Positions 59 to 61,168 of a stretch of 64,000 nt of DNA are shown here, one piece after another; the first letter of the stretch is position 1, and each line of letters begins with the position of its first letter. This DNA comes from Amycolatopsis thailandensis (GTDB lineage: Bacteria > Actinomycetota > Actinomycetes > Mycobacteriales > Pseudonocardiaceae), in the NCBI RefSeq assembly GCF_002234405.1, contig NZ_NMQT01000094.1, positions 1 through 64,000 of the forward strand, in the 5' to 3' direction. The translations under genes were made by a program, and so were the position numbers. The notes under the pieces are model-generated. The model was not told the origin of the DNA, made no database searches, and saw only the letters and a list, made by a program, of their open reading frames with translations.

Positions 59-185
59 GCGGGCCGGAAGGCGTGACTCGCGTGATCAGACACGTGACTC
101 GCTCGCGGCCGGGGTTCGCCGCGAGTCGTCCGCCTGGACACACGTGTCGTCCATCTGATCACGTGTGCCGTCCCTCCGGTCACAC
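59..185. repeat. 21-bp modular repeat array 1 (2 forward units, spacer, 3 reverse units)
   Basis: Two forward units (59-79, 80-100) end in GTGACTC. A 22-nt GC-rich centre (101-122) follows, then three reverse-oriented units (123-143, 144-164, 165-185) such as GTGTCGTCCATCTGATCACG. Every unit is exactly 21 bp and matches the units of the arrays at 28343-28491 and 59285-59564. The first unit is the most degenerate. No coding role is apparent. Confidence 0.75.
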
Positions 186-11580: not shown

Positions 11581-13860
11581 GTGAGCGCACCCCAGATCAC
11601 GCTGACCGTCCGGCACACCCCGTCCGCCTTGGACTCCCGCCGCGGCGTCGTCCGGCTGCATCCCGAAGTCCTCGACGCGCTCGGCCTGATGGCCTGGGAC
11701 GCGGTCCGCGTCACCGGCGCGCGGGTCAGCTCGGCGCTGGCCGCCCCGTCGGACGCGGAGGGGATCCCGGGCGTGATCCTCCTCGACGACGTCACGATGT
11801 CGAACCTCGGCGTGACCGAGGGCTCGGAGGTCGTCGTCGCCCCGGCGGAGGTGTCGGCCGCGAAGACGGTCACCGTGGCGGGCTCGCGGATCGCGAGCGT
11901 GTCGCTCTCCCCGCACACCCTGCGGCTCGCCCTGATCGGCAAGGTGCTGACGGTCGGCGACGCGGTTTCCCTGCTCCCCCAGGATCTCGCGCCGCCGCCG
12001 GGCTCCGACGTGTCCGCCGTCCGCGGTCAGCTTTCCCGCGCCATCGGCATGACGTGGACGAACGAGCTGCTCACGGTCACGGCCACCGAGCCGTCGGGGC
12101 CGGTCGCCGTCGGACCGTCCACTGTGGTCAGCTGGCGCGACGGCGCCCGCACCGGCGAGGCCGAGCCCGCCGCCGCGCCCGCTCGCGCCGGGACGACGCT
12201 GGTCCGCAGCACGCCCGCCACCCCGCACGAGGATTTCATCGACGCCGAGATCGTCGAAGACGAGCAGATCGACGAGGTCGCCGAGGAATCCGTGCCGCCT
12301 CTGTCGGATCTCGCCGGATCCGAATCGGCAGCGCGCAAGCTCGCCGAGTGGTTCGACCTGGCCTTCCACCGCCCGGAACTGCTCGCCAAACTCGGGACGT
12401 CGGCGCATCTGGGGGTCCTGCTGTCCGGGCCGGAAGGTGTCGGGAAGGCGACGCTGGTCCGTGCCGTGGCGCAGGCCGAGAAGGTGCGGGTGGTGTCGAT
12501 CGCGGCGCCGAACATCGCCGTTCTCGACCCGAACGTGGCCGCCGCGCGGCTGCGCGAGGCGATCGAGCAGGCAACCCGCGACGAAGAACCCGCCGTCCTG
12601 ATGATCACCGACATCGACACGCTGCTGCCCGCGTCCCAGCCGCCGCCACTCGCGACGGTCGTCCTCGACGACCTGCGCAAGGCCTTGCGCAACAAGGGCT
12701 TCGCCGTCGTCGCCACCACCGGACGGGCCGAGTCCACCGATCCCCGGCTGCGCGCCGCCGACCTGCTCGACCGCGAACTCGGCCTGCCGCTCCCGGACGC
12801 GAAGACCCGCATGGAACTGCTGCGGGTGCTGCTCCGCGAAGCCCCGCTGGAGTCCGGCGTCGACGTCGGGCCGATCGCCGAACGCACCCCCGGCTTCGTG
12901 GCCGCCGACCTGATCGCGCTCCGCCGCGACGCCGCCCTCCGCGCCGCGTTGCGCCAGCGTGACGCGGACGAGCCACGCATCTCCCAGCAGGATCTGCTCG
13001 ACGCGCTGACCACCGTCCGCCCCATCTCGATGTCCACTTCGGACAATCTGGCCACCGGCGGGCTGACCCTCGACGACGTCGGCAACATGACCGACGTCAA
13101 GCAGTCGCTCACCGAGGCGGTGCTGTGGCCGCTGCGCTATCCGGACTCGTTCGCCCGCCTCGGCGTCGACCCGCCGCGCGGCGTGCTGCTGTACGGGCCG
13201 CCCGGCGGCGGCAAGACGTTCCTGGTCCGGGCCCTCGCGGGCACCGGCGCGCTGAACGTGTTCGCGGTCAAGGGCGCCGAACTGATGGACAAATGGGTCG
13301 GCGAGTCCGAGCGCGCGGTGCGGGAACTGTTCCGCCGCGCCGCCGAGGCCGCGCCGTCGCTGATCTTCCTCGACGAGATCGACGCGCTGGCCCCTCGGCG
13401 CGGCCAGTCCTCGGACTCCGGAGTGTCGGACCGGGTCGTCGCGGCCCTGCTCACCGAGCTGGACGGCGTCGAGCCGATGCGCGAGGTCGTCGTCCTCGGC
13501 GCGACGAACCGGCCGGAGCTGGTCGACCCGGCCCTGCTGCGGCCGGGACGGCTTGAGCGCCGCGTCTACGTCCCGCCGCCGGACGCGCACGCGCGTGAGG
13601 CGATCTTGGCCGCCAGCGCCAAGAACACGCCACTCGCGTCCGATGTGGACCTCGCCGCGTATGCGGCCACTTTGGACGGTTACTCGGCGGCGGACTGCGC
13701 GGCGCTGATCCGGGAGGCCGCGCTGACCGCGATGCGGGAGTCGCTGGAGGCCAAGGAGGTCACCGCCGGGCATCTGGCGAAGGCGGCGGAGACCGTGCGG
13801 CCGTCGCTCGACCCGGCCCAGCTGGCGGCTCTGGAGGCCTACGCGCAGAACCAGGTCTGA
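11581..13860 (+). CDS. CDC48-family double-AAA ATPase with degenerate first AAA domain
   Basis: A 759-aa protein with a CDC48-like N-domain (1-~105), a linker with an acidic patch, and two AAA modules. The second is canonical: GPPGGGKT (~538), IFLDEIDAL (~598), ATNRPELVDPALLRPGRLE. The first has GPEGVGKA in place of GKT/S (~283) and ITDIDTL in place of LDEIDAL, so it probably binds or hydrolyses ATP poorly. Homologues (Rv0435c in M. tuberculosis) sit beside psd-pssA. Substrates are unknown; protein unfolding is inferred from the family. Confidence 0.93.
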   Translation: MSAPQITLTVRHTPSALDSRRGVVRLHPEVLDALGLMAWDAVRVTGARVSSALAAPSDAEGIPGVILLDDVTMSNLGVTEGSEVVVAPAEVSAAKTVTVAGSRIASVSLSPHTLRLALIGKVLTVGDAVSLLPQDLAPPPGSDVSAVRGQLSRAIGMTWTNELLTVTATEPSGPVAVGPSTVVSWRDGARTGEAEPAAAPARAGTTLVRSTPATPHEDFIDAEIVEDEQIDEVAEESVPPLSDLAGSESAARKLAEWFDLAFHRPELLAKLGTSAHLGVLLSGPEGVGKATLVRAVAQAEKVRVVSIAAPNIAVLDPNVAAARLREAIEQATRDEEPAVLMITDIDTLLPASQPPPLATVVLDDLRKALRNKGFAVVATTGRAESTDPRLRAADLLDRELGLPLPDAKTRMELLRVLLREAPLESGVDVGPIAERTPGFVAADLIALRRDAALRAALRQRDADEPRISQQDLLDALTTVRPISMSTSDNLATGGLTLDDVGNMTDVKQSLTEAVLWPLRYPDSFARLGVDPPRGVLLYGPPGGGKTFLVRALAGTGALNVFAVKGAELMDKWVGESERAVRELFRRAAEAAPSLIFLDEIDALAPRRGQSSDSGVSDRVVAALLTELDGVEPMREVVVLGATNRPELVDPALLRPGRLERRVYVPPPDAHAREAILAASAKNTPLASDVDLAAYAATLDGYSAADCAALIREAALTAMRESLEAKEVTAGHLAKAAETVRPSLDPAQLAALEAYAQNQV

Positions 13861-25482: not shown

Positions 25483-27514
<2,032 letters not shown>

Positions 27515-27523
27515 GACGATCAC

Positions 27524-27613
27524 GCTCCCTGCGCCGGCATGACCCGGATCAGGTTCCACGGTCGGAGCGGTTTCGGCTCCCTCTCAGCCCGTCCTCGGGC
27601 TCCCGTGCGGACC
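27524..27613 (-). ncRNA. TPP riboswitch (thiO leader)
   Basis: On the minus strand: GGGAGCCCGAGGACGGGCTG, then AGAGGGAG, ACCGTGGAACCTGATCCGGG, TCATGCCGGCGCAGGGAGCG. All thi-box parts are present, and the final GGGAG serves the thiO start. The thiO ATG is 9 bp beyond it. Confidence 0.95.
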
Positions 27614-27633
27614 ACCCCACCGTAGCGCGCGGG

Positions 27634-27646: not shown

Positions 27647-28303
27647 ATGCCCACCCTGTCTGGTCCTCAGATCCGCGCCGCCCTCGCGGACGCCCGCCTG
27701 TACCTCTGCACCGACGCCCGGTCCGGTCGCGGCGATCTCGCCGAATTCGCCGACGCGGCGCTGGCCGGCGGGGTCGACATCATCCAGCTGAGGGACAAGA
27801 CGATCGAGGCGAAACAAGAGATCGCCGCGCTGGAAGTGCTGGCGGAGGCGTGCGAGAAGCACGGCAAACTGCTGGCGGTGAACGACCGCGCGGACGTCGC
27901 GCTCGCCGCCGGCGCGCACGTGCTGCACCTGGGGCAGGACGACATCCCGGTCCCGCTGGCGCGTCGTGTGCTCGGGGACGACGTGGTGATCGGCCGGTCC
28001 ACCCATTCGGCCGAACAGGCCAAGGCGGCCGCCGAGGAACCCGGCGTGGACTACTTCTGCACCGGTCCGTGCTGGCCGACGCCGACGAAGCCGGGGCGGC
28101 CCGCTCCCGGGCTCGACCTGGTGCGCTCCACCGCGGCCTTCGGGACGTCGCGGCCGTGGTTCGCGATCGGCGGCATCGACACCGAACGGCTGCCCGAGGT
28201 GCTGGACGCGGGGGCGTCGCGGATCGTCGTCGTCCGGGCGATCACCGAGGCCGAGGACCCCGAAGCGGCCGCTCGCACGCTTCGCGGGTCCCTCATCTCG
28301 TGA
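27647..28303 (+). CDS. thiE: Thiamine-phosphate synthase ThiE
   Basis: Joins HMP-PP and thiazole-phosphate to thiamine-phosphate. 218 aa, TIM-barrel. Motifs: IIQLRDK (~45), [25 protein letters not shown] (~75-100), [13 protein letters not shown] and FAIGGID. Divergent from thiO-thiS-thiG, with about 130 bp shared. Confidence 0.95.
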
Positions 28304-28342: not shown

Positions 28343-28491
28343 GTGTGACTGGAGGGACGGCACACGTGATCAGACGGACGACACGTGTGTCCAGACGGAC
28401 GACACTCGGCAGGAGCCCGGCCGCGAGCGTGTCGTCCCTCCAGTCACGCGTGTCGTCCGTCTGATCACACGCGCCGTCCACTCGATCACGC
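28343..28491. repeat. 21-bp modular repeat array 2 (3 forward units, spacer, 3 reverse units)
   Basis: Forward units 28343-28363, 28364-28384 and 28385-28405 share the core GACGGACGACAC. A 23-nt GC-rich centre (28406-28428) follows, then reverse units 28429-28449, 28450-28470 and 28471-28491 with core GTGTCGTCCGTCTGATCAC. All units are exactly 21 bp. It occupies the convergent gap between thiE and a membrane-protein gene and could form a long interrupted hairpin. Confidence 0.9.
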
Positions 28492-28526: not shown

Positions 28527-29246
28527 TCAGGGCGCGGGGGTGCCGGAGGCCGGGGCCGACGGGGTCGTCGAGGGCGCCTGAGAGGTCGAAGGCGTCGTGG
28601 ACGGCGTCGTCGGAGGCGCCTGCGTGGTCGTGGGCGCCGTCGGTGTCGTCGTGGGGGTCGGCGTGGTCGACGGCGGCGTCTCGGGCCGGTTGTCCTGGGT
28701 CTCCGAACGGGACGTCGCGGGTGGGCTGTCGTGCTTGTCCTTCCGCTCCTGGTCCTGCCCGCCGCCGACGATCTTCCCCAGCGTCGTCCCTGTCCCGCCG
28801 CCGAAGGTCTTCCCGGTCGCGCCCTCGAAACCGGTGATCGCGACGAGCGCCACCACGAACGCCACCACGCTGACCCCGGCGATCACCGCCCAGCGCGGTT
28901 TGAACTTCCGCCCGGACGGCTCTTCCTCCTCCGCGGGGGTGAGCCGGACGGTCTCCTGCTCCGACGGGTCGAGCACCTTGCGGCGGCCGGGAACGGTCAG
29001 CACCATCCCCGCCTTGAGCGCGGCGTCCTTCGTCCGCTGGAGCGAACGCAGGTACAACTCGCCACCGAGCGTGGTGATCACACTCGCCAGCCCGGCGCCC
29101 GCCACCGTTCCCGCCACACCGAGCGTGGAACCCAGCAGGGCCGCGGTGATCGCGGCCATCGCGGCCGCCGTCACCTGGACGATCCTGCCCTGCTTCTCCG
29201 TCTTTTCGGTCTTTTCGATGGCCTTTTCGGAGGTCTCCTTGGTCAT
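28527..29246 (-). CDS. Hypothetical membrane protein with Thr/Pro-rich tail
   Basis: A 239-aa protein I do not recognise by family. It has a Lys/Glu-rich N-terminus (KETSEKAIEKTEKTEK), a glycine/alanine-rich hydrophobic hairpin (~25-65), a charged linker, a second membrane segment WAVIAGVSVVAFVVALVAI (~118) and a ~75-residue Thr/Pro/Ser tail. The tail resembles a cell-wall-spanning segment, so it probably faces outwards. Confidence 0.75.
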   Translation of the reverse strand: MTKETSEKAIEKTEKTEKQGRIVQVTAAAMAAITAALLGSTLGVAGTVAGAGLASVITTLGGELYLRSLQRTKDAALKAGMVLTVPGRRKVLDPSEQETVRLTPAEEEEPSGRKFKPRWAVIAGVSVVAFVVALVAITGFEGATGKTFGGGTGTTLGKIVGGGQDQERKDKHDSPPATSRSETQDNRPETPPSTTPTPTTTPTAPTTTQAPPTTPSTTPSTSQAPSTTPSAPASGTPAP

Positions 29247-58824: not shown

Positions 58825-59286
58825 GTGACAGTGGTGAAATCGGGGGAACCGAACGACGACGAAGTGGTCACGTGGTGGGGCCTGGTGATCGAGGGCTACC
58901 TGGCCACGCAGAACAAGCTGATGGGCGAGATCGCCGAACGGTTCGGCCTGGCGCCGGCGTCGTTCGACATCCTGATCAGGCTCGTGCGCTCACCCGAGCA
59001 CCGGATGCCGATGACGCGGCTGGCCGTCGAGGCGGCGTTGTCCAGCGGCGGGTTCACCAAGGTCGCGGACCGGCTGGTCGCCGCGGACTTGATCTGCCGC
59101 GTGCCCAGCCCGGACGACCGGCGCGTCACGTTCGCGGCGCTCACCGAGCACGGCCTCGACGTCGCGGAACAGGCGCGGGAGGCATGCGCGGAGATCCTGC
59201 GGCGCATCGTCCTGGCCCCGCTCGGTGACGACGCCTCCGGCCTCGCCGAAGCCATGCGGACCCTGCGGACCGTCAACGGCGCTTGA
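58825..59286 (+). CDS. MarR-family regulator (MhqR-like position)
   Basis: A 153-aa winged-helix protein (SFDILIRLVRSPEHRMPMTRLAVEAALSSGGFTKVADRLVAADLI...SPDDRRVTFAALT). It probably represses the adjacent dioxygenase-hydrolase operon and is relieved by quinones or phenols. Leaderless GTG start. The stop codon touches 21-bp array 3. Confidence 0.9.
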   Translation: MTVVKSGEPNDDEVVTWWGLVIEGYLATQNKLMGEIAERFGLAPASFDILIRLVRSPEHRMPMTRLAVEAALSSGGFTKVADRLVAADLICRVPSPDDRRVTFAALTEHGLDVAEQAREACAEILRRIVLAPLGDDASGLAEAMRTLRTVNGA

Positions 59287-59564
59287 GTTCCGCCTTCAAA
59301 CACGCGAGTTCCGCTTCCAAGCACGCGAGTTCCGGCTTCAAGCACGAGTGTCGTCCCTCTGATCACGCGTGTCGTCCGTCCAGTCACGCGAGCCGGCCAT
59401 CGAGTCACGTCGGCTCGGCTCGCGGTTTCGGCGAACTCGCGTGCTCAGAGGCGGGACTCGCGTGATTGGAGGCGGGACACGCGTGATTGGAGACGGATCT
59501 CGCGTGATTGAAGGCGGGACTCGCGTGATCAGACGGACGACACGTGTGATCGGGTGGACGTCAG
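59285..59564. repeat. 21-bp modular repeat array 3 (6 reverse units, spacer, 6 forward units)
   Basis: Six reverse units occupy 59285-59305, -59326, -59347, -59368, -59389, -59410. A 28-nt centre (59411-59438) follows, then six forward units at 59439-59459, -59480, -59501, -59522, -59543, -59564, for example GCGTGATTGGAGGCGGGACA. Every step is 21 bp with no slippage. It fills the convergent gap between marR and the ligase gene and reaches 4 bp into the ligase stop region. Same unit family as 59-185 and 28343-28491, with the arm order reversed relative to array 2. Confidence 0.93.
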
Positions 59565-61168
59565 CCGGGCAGGGGTGAGGCGGGGTCGGGCTGGTAGGCC
59601 TGGACCTCGTACATGTCCCGCACCAGTTCCCGGATGACGTTGCGCCGGATCTTCCCGGTCGCCGTCTTCGGCAGTTCGCCGAGCTCGACGACGCCCCGCG
59701 GCCGTTTGAACGACGCCAGCCCGGCCCGGCAGAAGTCGATCAGCTCGTCCGCGTCCAGCCGCTGACCGGGCACGCCGACCACGCACGCGACCGGTTTCTC
59801 GATGCCGTCGGCGTCGAAGGCGGCCACGACCGCGACCTCGGCGACCGCCGGATGCTGGAGCAGCCTGTCCTCGACCTCGGCGGGCGAAACCCAGATCCCG
59901 CCCGGTTTCAGCATGTCGTTGAACCGCCCGAGACAGGTGTAGGTGCCGTCCGCGTCGCGCACGAAACTGTCGCCCGTCCGCAACCATTCCCCTTGGAAGA
60001 CCTGCTTCGTCGTCTCGTACCGCGCCCAGTACCCGGTCGCTATCGACGGTCCGGCGACGAACAGCTCACCGGGCTGCCCGTCCGGCACGGGGTCGCCGTG
60101 TTCGTCGCGCAGCGCGACTTCGTAGCCGGGCACCGGGATCCCTGTGCTGCCGGGGCGAACCTGGTGCGGCCGGTTGGTCAGGAAGACGTGCAGTGCCTCC
60201 GTCGAGCCGATCCCGTCGAGGATCTCGACGCCGAACCGGTCGCGAAACCGTTCGTAAAGCGCGGCGGGCAGTGGTTCCCCCGCCGAAACCGCCTGTCGTA
60301 CCGAGACGAACGTGTCGTCGGGGATGTCGCTGGCGAGCAACGCCGCGTAGAAGGTCGGGACGGCGAAGAACAACGTCGGCCGCTCCGCGCGGGCCCTGGC
60401 GGCGATCAGTCCCGGGGTCGGTCTCGCCGGTTCGAGCAGCGTCGTCCCGCCCGCCGCGAGCGGGAAGAACGCCGAATTCCCCAGCCCGTAAGCGAAGAAC
60501 AGCTTCGGAACGGAAAGGAAACGATCGTTCGGCCCGATGTCCAGCACCCCGCGCGCGTAGGTCTCGCAGACCGCGCGGATCCCCGCGTGCCGGTGCATCG
60601 CGCCCTTCGGCTTCCCCGTCGTACCCGAGGTGTACAGCCAGAGCGCGGGCGAATCCTCCCAGGTCGCCGCCGGTTCGAAACCACTTTCGTCCACTGTGGA
60701 CAGATCGCTCCACTCGTGCGCGCGGACCCCGGGCGGCAGTTCGGCCGCTTTGGCCCTGTCCAGCACGACGTCGGTGACCTCCGGCGCCAGCCCCAACGCG
60801 ATCGTCGCCTGCGCGGCGAACTCGCCGGAGACGCACAGCACCCTGGCGCGCGAGTCGGCGAGCACCTTGCCCAGGTCCATACCGGTGACCATGGTGGACA
60901 CCGGTACCGCGACCGCTCCGGCCAGCATCGCGCCGAGGATCCCGGTGAGCAGCTCGACGTCGTCGACCATGCAGAACAGGACCCGCTCCTCGGGACGGAC
61001 CCCGATGGCCTTCAGCCCGGCCGCGAACCGGCGGGTCTCGGCCGCGAGCTCCGCGTACGTGAGACTTCGCCTGGGGGAAACGACGGCGTTCTTCGCCCCA
61101 CGCCCTTCCGCCGAATGCCTGTCGAGCAGGTAGCTCGTCGCGTTGAACCCGGTAGCAGCAGCGGTCAC
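59561..61168 (-). CDS. Benzoate-CoA ligase
   Basis: Adenylate-forming enzyme making benzoyl-CoA from benzoate, ATP and CoA. 535 aa. Motifs: WLYTSGTTGKPKGAMH (~185), LFFAYGLGNSAFFPL (typical of benzoate-CoA ligases), DGIGSTEALHVFLTN, LGRFNDMLKPGGIWVSPAEVE and the catalytic Lys in PKTATGKIRRNVIREL. Third gene after boxC-boxB, 19 bp behind boxB. Confidence 0.93.
   Translation of the reverse strand: MTAAATGFNATSYLLDRHSAEGRGAKNAVVSPRRSLTYAELAAETRRFAAGLKAIGVRPEERVLFCMVDDVELLTGILGAMLAGAVAVPVSTMVTGMDLGKVLADSRARVLCVSGEFAAQATIALGLAPEVTDVVLDRAKAAELPPGVRAHEWSDLSTVDESGFEPAATWEDSPALWLYTSGTTGKPKGAMHRHAGIRAVCETYARGVLDIGPNDRFLSVPKLFFAYGLGNSAFFPLAAGGTTLLEPARPTPGLIAARARAERPTLFFAVPTFYAALLASDIPDDTFVSVRQAVSAGEPLPAALYERFRDRFGVEILDGIGSTEALHVFLTNRPHQVRPGSTGIPVPGYEVALRDEHGDPVPDGQPGELFVAGPSIATGYWARYETTKQVFQGEWLRTGDSFVRDADGTYTCLGRFNDMLKPGGIWVSPAEVEDRLLQHPAVAEVAVVAAFDADGIEKPVACVVGVPGQRLDADELIDFCRAGLASFKRPRGVVELGELPKTATGKIRRNVIRELVRDMYEVQAYQPDPASPLPG

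Follow-up and report, generated by a model that had tools for sequence, protein, structure and literature searches.

To date, the closest described systems are dispersed extragenic repeats and long terminator hairpins. REP/BIME elements consist of palindromic units, fall into GTAG/CGTC-tagged families, and go with RAYT transposases, according to the accessible part of the source (PMC3733652). In Streptomyces, terminator hairpins are long, very stable, and poor in U, as far as the available sections describe them (PMC12207403), and the available text of a 40-genome survey reports that stem-loops concentrate in convergent intergenic spaces (PMC1590033).

In the Amycolatopsis thailandensis window, i.e., the whole 64,000-nt stretch of DNA that was analyzed, the gap between a MarR-family gene and an acyl-CoA ligase gene is filled by two facing arms of 21-bp units (forward units are written > and reverse units <). 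Insofar as the accessible part of PMC3733652 covers them, REP/BIME elements share several features with such arrays: both are dispersed, high in copy number, extragenic, located mainly in convergent and unidirectional gaps, and built of opposed units, and a role at mRNA 3′ ends has been proposed there as well. Unlike the REP/BIME palindrome of 20–40 bp with its GTAG or CGTC tag, however, the array unit is a directional 21-mer, which forms tandem, many-unit arms in strict phase. Membership in the RAYT/REP system is not supported, since the unit is not palindromic and a Y1/RAYT transposase (PF01797) was found in 0/14 Amycolatopsis genomes, the source genome included, and in 5/14 control genomes.

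The arrays also resemble the Streptomyces hairpins in being long, GC-rich, placed after stop codons, and low in U, but they differ from what the available sections of PMC12207403 describe in their modular build with a fixed period and in that 50/185 have no second arm. With the surveyed stem-loops they share the preference for convergent spaces; the available text of PMC1590033 describes no phased-unit array. Unlike a canonical intrinsic terminator, the arrays carry no U-tract, and, as in a phased protein-binding array, a conserved core recurs at constant spacing, save across >< junctions. The 21-bp array appears REP/BIME-like while differing in unit, phase, and transposase, and its function is one that we infer. 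The array was originally described as unnamed, which fits: it has no Rfam match, and no publication describing it was found in a literature search for which most subscription papers lay out of reach.

Architecture of the Arrays in the Window

The main array lies between two convergent genes, a MarR-family gene (58831..59286, + strand; Pfam MarR_2, 7.8e-10, and gene call) and an AMP-binding acyl-CoA ligase gene (59561..61168, − strand; Pfam AMP-binding, 1.1e-83), which we take from its neighboring genes to be benzoate-CoA ligase-like. The left arm (59285..59410, +) starts inside the MarR stop codon and consists of six 21-bp units in > orientation, with the consensus TCACGCGAGTYCCGCCTCCRA derived from the position matrix. 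It is followed by a GC-rich centre of 28 nt (59411..59438), which forms the >< junction, and by the right arm (59439..59564, −), whose six units in < orientation end at the ligase stop codon. The predicted six plus six units around a 28-nt centre are therefore present, although the outermost right unit is degenerate: the position matrix recovers 6+5 units at 59279–59549, in a frame shifted by 6. Direct repeats are spaced by 21 at each step listed, TRF likewise gives a period of 21, and the top inverted pairs join arms that are 88 nt long (80% matching) and 92 nt long (75%). By eye, centres resembling the 28-nt one also occur at three loci of relatives (L272, which has masked bases inside its array, L273, and L275).

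The two smaller arrays of the same units that had been noticed elsewhere in the window proved real, with the arm order <<>>, i.e., opposite to the >><< of the main array. The second array (28349..28485, coordinates by matrix; <<<, an 11-nt centre, >>>) is flanked by the convergent genes thiE (27647-28303, +) and one without a Pfam match (28527-29246, −). The third (65..179, coordinates by matrix; <<>> with a core distance of 41) is near the contig start, past the 3′ end of groEL (386-2014, −). A near-perfect hairpin of the AATGTCGCATTTGAG type was seen by eye at 200-300, and hairpins of other families occur in the convergent gaps starting at 13860, 15598, 20599, 22074, 30344, and 40761. The sole Rfam match in the window at gathering score is a TPP riboswitch (RF00059, 66 bits; 27509-27616, −) at the called start of a gene at 26444-27523 (−).

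Beyond the window, 185 Amycolatopsis arrays of at least three units were compared, a set that excludes smaller arrays, 2 exact duplicates, and 17 non-Amycolatopsis loci. They comprise 109 <> arrays, 21 >< arrays, 50 one-arm arrays (33 > and 17 <, strands being arbitrary), and 5 more complex ones. The >< type of the main array is rarer than <>.

Genomic Context and Orthologous Loci

A position between convergent genes, which the original prediction had raised, is the commonest: by a simple purpose-made gene caller, 103 of the 185 arrays are in convergent, 66 in same-strand, and 5 in divergent contexts, and 11 lie at stretch edges without gene context. In a sample of 30 arrays of the source genome, 13 were convergent, 14 same-strand, 1 divergent, and 2 at edges (Fisher p = 0.003 for convergent); these stretches were picked around known arrays, and the counts do not represent a density. 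Among at least 80 named loci, 68 arrays were divided into 39 convergent, 19 same-strand, 2 divergent, and 8 edge cases (Fisher p = 3e-16), with 17 loci outside Amycolatopsis included here; named loci outside the genus also enter the stop-to-stop counts, the unit-identity values, and the RNA-stability counts below. None of the 185 arrays (0/185) lies inside a called gene, so coding repeats were rejected.

The arrays are also oriented and placed relative to the flanking genes. Where the flanking genes share a strand, > units predominate in sense orientation in 40 arrays and in antisense orientation in 15, with 11 ties (p = 0.001); the counts are 30, 12, and 10 when each locus contributes a single array (p = 0.008). 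The one-arm arrays among them behave alike (15 vs 4; one per locus, 10 vs 4). Replication polarity was rejected as the origin of this bias on the basis of one genome, G239, which has dnaA near the contig end and shows no replichore bias (pairs counted by hand: 17 + and 15 − in the first contig half, 23 and 22 in the second). Both ends of convergent arrays lie within 30 bp of stop codons in 24/39 named cases among the matches listed and in 5/13 of the source genome. Furthermore, the stop codons fall in TGA positions of the unit: gene ends meeting < first do so at unit offset 0 in 27/107 cases (about 5 expected) and at offset 3-5 in 33/107, and those meeting > first at offset 0, 8, or 10 in 34/56.

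Three loci were compared with their orthologs, each in the best 30 loci of 60 genomes searched, by an ungapped stem score (match +1, mismatch −2; strong stem, at least 14). At the MarR–ligase locus, the source locus included, 17 loci have a convergent and 13 a co-directional neighbor. Arrays of at least three units, one of them one-arm, are present in 7 of the 17 convergent loci, in gaps of 107 to 274 bp, and the 10 array-free ones have a stem of at least 14 in five cases, of 12-13 in two, and a weak one in three. The 13 co-directional loci (gap of 13 bp or 4-bp overlap) have neither array nor hairpin. Several of the ligase loci L277-L280, L283, and L284, which carry another repeat family of the GTCCTCTGA type, hold the ligase stop codon within it. 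For thiE, a convergent neighbor was called in 24/30 loci; a stem of at least 14 is present in 15/16 of those with a gap of at least 57 bp, and a hairpin in the gap in 0/8 of those with a gap of at most 10 bp. Among these best 30 loci, an array of at least two units is found at thiE solely in the source genome, with other hairpins elsewhere. At groEL, arrays occur in 5/30 of the best loci (the source genome, L115, L116, L121, and L123), and L112 has one pair of units.

Array-free spacers of 30-400 bp in the source genome reveal the same tendency: stems of at least 14 are found in 53/62 convergent, 29/185 same-strand, and 2/108 divergent spacers and in 0 shuffled ones, and those of the convergent spacers belong to many sequence families. 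For array-free convergent spacers elsewhere, the fractions are 9/20 in five array-free congeners, 11/19 at named Amycolatopsis loci (among the matches listed), 5/8 in another genus, 1/3 in G231, and 3/13 in E. coli K-12, which places the source genome at the high end. Thus, a hairpin or an array is usual where a convergent gap exists, and convergent genes can also abut without either; as the eight abutting thiE pairs show, a hairpin is not obligatory between convergent genes.

The reading that we favor, although we regard it as evenly balanced, is that the array would be a two-sided transcript-ending or insulating element at gene 3′ ends, above all in convergent gaps. It rests on the observed location, phase, orientation, alternative hairpins, and stop-codon register, from which we infer the function itself; the role at transcript ends in particular is argued from location and from the alternation with other hairpins. 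Such an element might protect mRNA 3′ ends and might stop or release RNA polymerase arriving from either side. Polymerase would respond to the two-arm RNA structure, to a factor that recognizes the repeated unit (a DNA-binding protein, or one acting on RNA such as Rho), or to both. With a fixed length of 21 bp, the units would stay in mutual register however many were gained or lost. This reading applies to gaps, not to abutting genes, and the abutting thiE pairs without a hairpin count against it, as does the lower frequency of strong stems outside the source genome. In addition, the same location could arise if the repeats were tolerated only where they hit no promoter.

Unit Sequence, Period, and Phase

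The unit matrix is directional, and only its CGCG core is near-palindromic; the information resides mostly in the core positions, and the middle is degenerate. When the gap between two 9-bp cores was allowed to range over 0-30 nt in the source genome, every pair found lay exactly 21 bp apart (57/57), and the reversed-pattern control gave 0. For four relatives, the figure is 311/319, the 319 coming from the free-gap and the 311 from the fixed-gap search. These searches, which cover pairs within 39 bp, constitute the evidence for the period. The within-arm spacing from the later unit finding does not, because a same-orientation neighbor 21 bp away was mostly required there. The predicted fixed length thus holds genome-wide, and spacings other than 21 are rare.

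Simple slippage, which the original prediction had disfavored, was rejected together with a minisatellite origin. At the variable positions, units of different arrays have an identity of 0.485, vs a hand-derived value of about 0.48 for independent draws from the matrix, and copies within an array are only modestly more alike (0.55 for non-mirror to 0.61 for mirror units). The conserved core and the strict phase suggest that some factor recognizes the unit. A phased, sequence-specific component, either a protein or a Rho-like factor, may contribute.

Fixed length with variable sequence had also been taken as a sign of selection on phasing. Phasing finds support past what that first observation covered, in one type of junction. 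Across <> junctions, the core-to-core distance modulo 21 is 0 or 20, our definition of "in phase", in 89/115 cases (72/95 with one array per locus). This unrestricted count replaces an earlier 26/32, which took spacings of 28-34 only and was circular. Across >< junctions (n = 27), the type of the main array, there is no 21-bp phase over the inversion, and 10 lie at a distance of 49-52.

These features might be explained by phased sites for a putative DNA-binding protein: each near-palindromic CGCG core would bind one protein, and the cores, two helical turns apart, would be presented on one face; a filament could then block polymerases or handle supercoils between convergent genes, with the RNA hairpin as a by-product. 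The information-rich core beside a degenerate middle, the constant spacing, and the phase retained over <> inversions are consistent with this, as is the occurrence of one-arm arrays in like places. Prauserella, Kutzneria, and Pseudonocardia, among the matches listed, also have 21-bp arrays of different unit sequence, although these were found with a 21-bp pattern and only their continuation past the first pair is independent. The out-of-phase >< junctions, that of the main array included, and the core-less hairpins that fill the same gap in relatives make this explanation rather unlikely. A related proposal, in which cooperative phased binding of a putative protein (or a Rho-like RNA factor) would insulate convergent units from each other in an orientation-dependent manner, evolutionarily interchangeable with long hairpins, is tentative and, in our judgment, rather unlikely.

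Distribution across Genomes

The source genome (9.35 Mb in 421 contigs) contains 168 BLAST matches, and core pairs were detected in 16/26 sampled Amycolatopsis genomes, the source included, at 13 to 197 pairs each. Within the family, 45/297 genomes have core pairs; those of other genera (29/271) have at most 6 each, often at other spacings among the matches listed. A pattern scan of named genomes likewise gave mostly Amycolatopsis among the matches listed. Arrays are abundant in the source genome and its relatives, and the main array is one copy of a dispersed, modular Amycolatopsis repeat family. With other spacings rare as well, neither of the two results that would have spoken against the original prediction emerged. 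Tandem 21-bp repeats with CACGCGAGT or CACGCGTGT also occur in unrelated bacteria, perhaps by chance or convergence: a Gemmatimonadaceae MAG (L193), Kouleothrix (L201), and a deltaproteobacterial MAG (L213).

The presence of the family shifts quickly. Core pairs are lacking in 10/26 Amycolatopsis genomes, including that of the close relative G015, whose ThiE is 93% identical to that of the source genome. As a genome that may lack the relevant factor, G015 (loci L254-L256) lends itself to comparison. Such turnover would be expected of a neutral or selfish repeat that spreads, recombines, survives away from promoters, and supplies new stop codons; the restriction of arrays of at least two units at thiE to the source genome among the best 30 loci, the stop codons in unit TGA positions, and the convergent pairs without array or hairpin would fit as well. 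However, a repeat of this kind would not be expected to show an orientation bias relative to flanking genes, to alternate with other hairpins, or to keep its cores while the variable positions are randomized between arrays, and the 14/14 genomes without a transposase, as far as the Y1 family is concerned, also speak against it. We consider this origin unlikely.

Contribution of the Hairpin

RNA of the main array is predicted to fold strongly from both strands, at −182.3 kcal/mol (z −9.5) for the + strand and −159.5 kcal/mol (z −9.0) for the − strand, and 0/100 dinucleotide shuffles were as good in either case. In convergent spacers, a stem of at least 14 is present with 68/69 two-arm and 6/27 one-arm arrays, and 21/27 of the latter spacers have no other long hairpin. 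Covariation between the arms is weak: mirrored units score 0.627 vs 0.605 when permuted (p = 0.003), with 0.613 against 0.633 at offset −1, and the innermost mirrored pair reaches an identity of 0.708 at variable positions.

In same-strand arrays, the arm mismatches comprise 55 G.U-compatible, 59 A.C-compatible, and 170 transversion cases, and the sense RNA is less stable than the antisense in 25/33 (a few not Amycolatopsis). The antisense RNA may fold better because > units prevail in the sense direction. Selection on sense RNA through G.U pairs is not supported, as G.U is about equal to A.C and the sense folds are weaker. A U-tract (at least 5 T in 8 nt) was found at 0/272 array ends and at 2/169 random control positions.

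The long hairpin that had been put forward as an alternative to phasing can form in two-arm arrays, and other hairpins replace the array at orthologous loci, but the arms covary weakly and 50/185 arrays have only one. Base pairing alone does not account for the arrays. A plain long RNA hairpin, which would act through pairing alone to terminate transcription or to block exonucleases, agrees with the strong folds, the stems of two-arm spacers, and the innermost pair, but is very improbable given the weak covariation, the equality of G.U and A.C, the one-arm arrays, and the conserved core sequence. The favored two-sided element at gene 3′ ends is also burdened by these results, namely by the missing U-tract, by one-arm arrays at like places that mostly have no hairpin, and by an arm pairing that is weakly selected, with sense RNA less stable than antisense.

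Implications for Convergent Transcription in Amycolatopsis

How transcripts end between convergent genes is poorly settled in U-poor, GC-rich actinomycetes. The array family is countable and modular, and orthologous loci differ naturally in the number, phase, and orientation of its units. Together with the alternation between arrays and other hairpins, this natural variation makes the question of convergent transcript ends directly testable.
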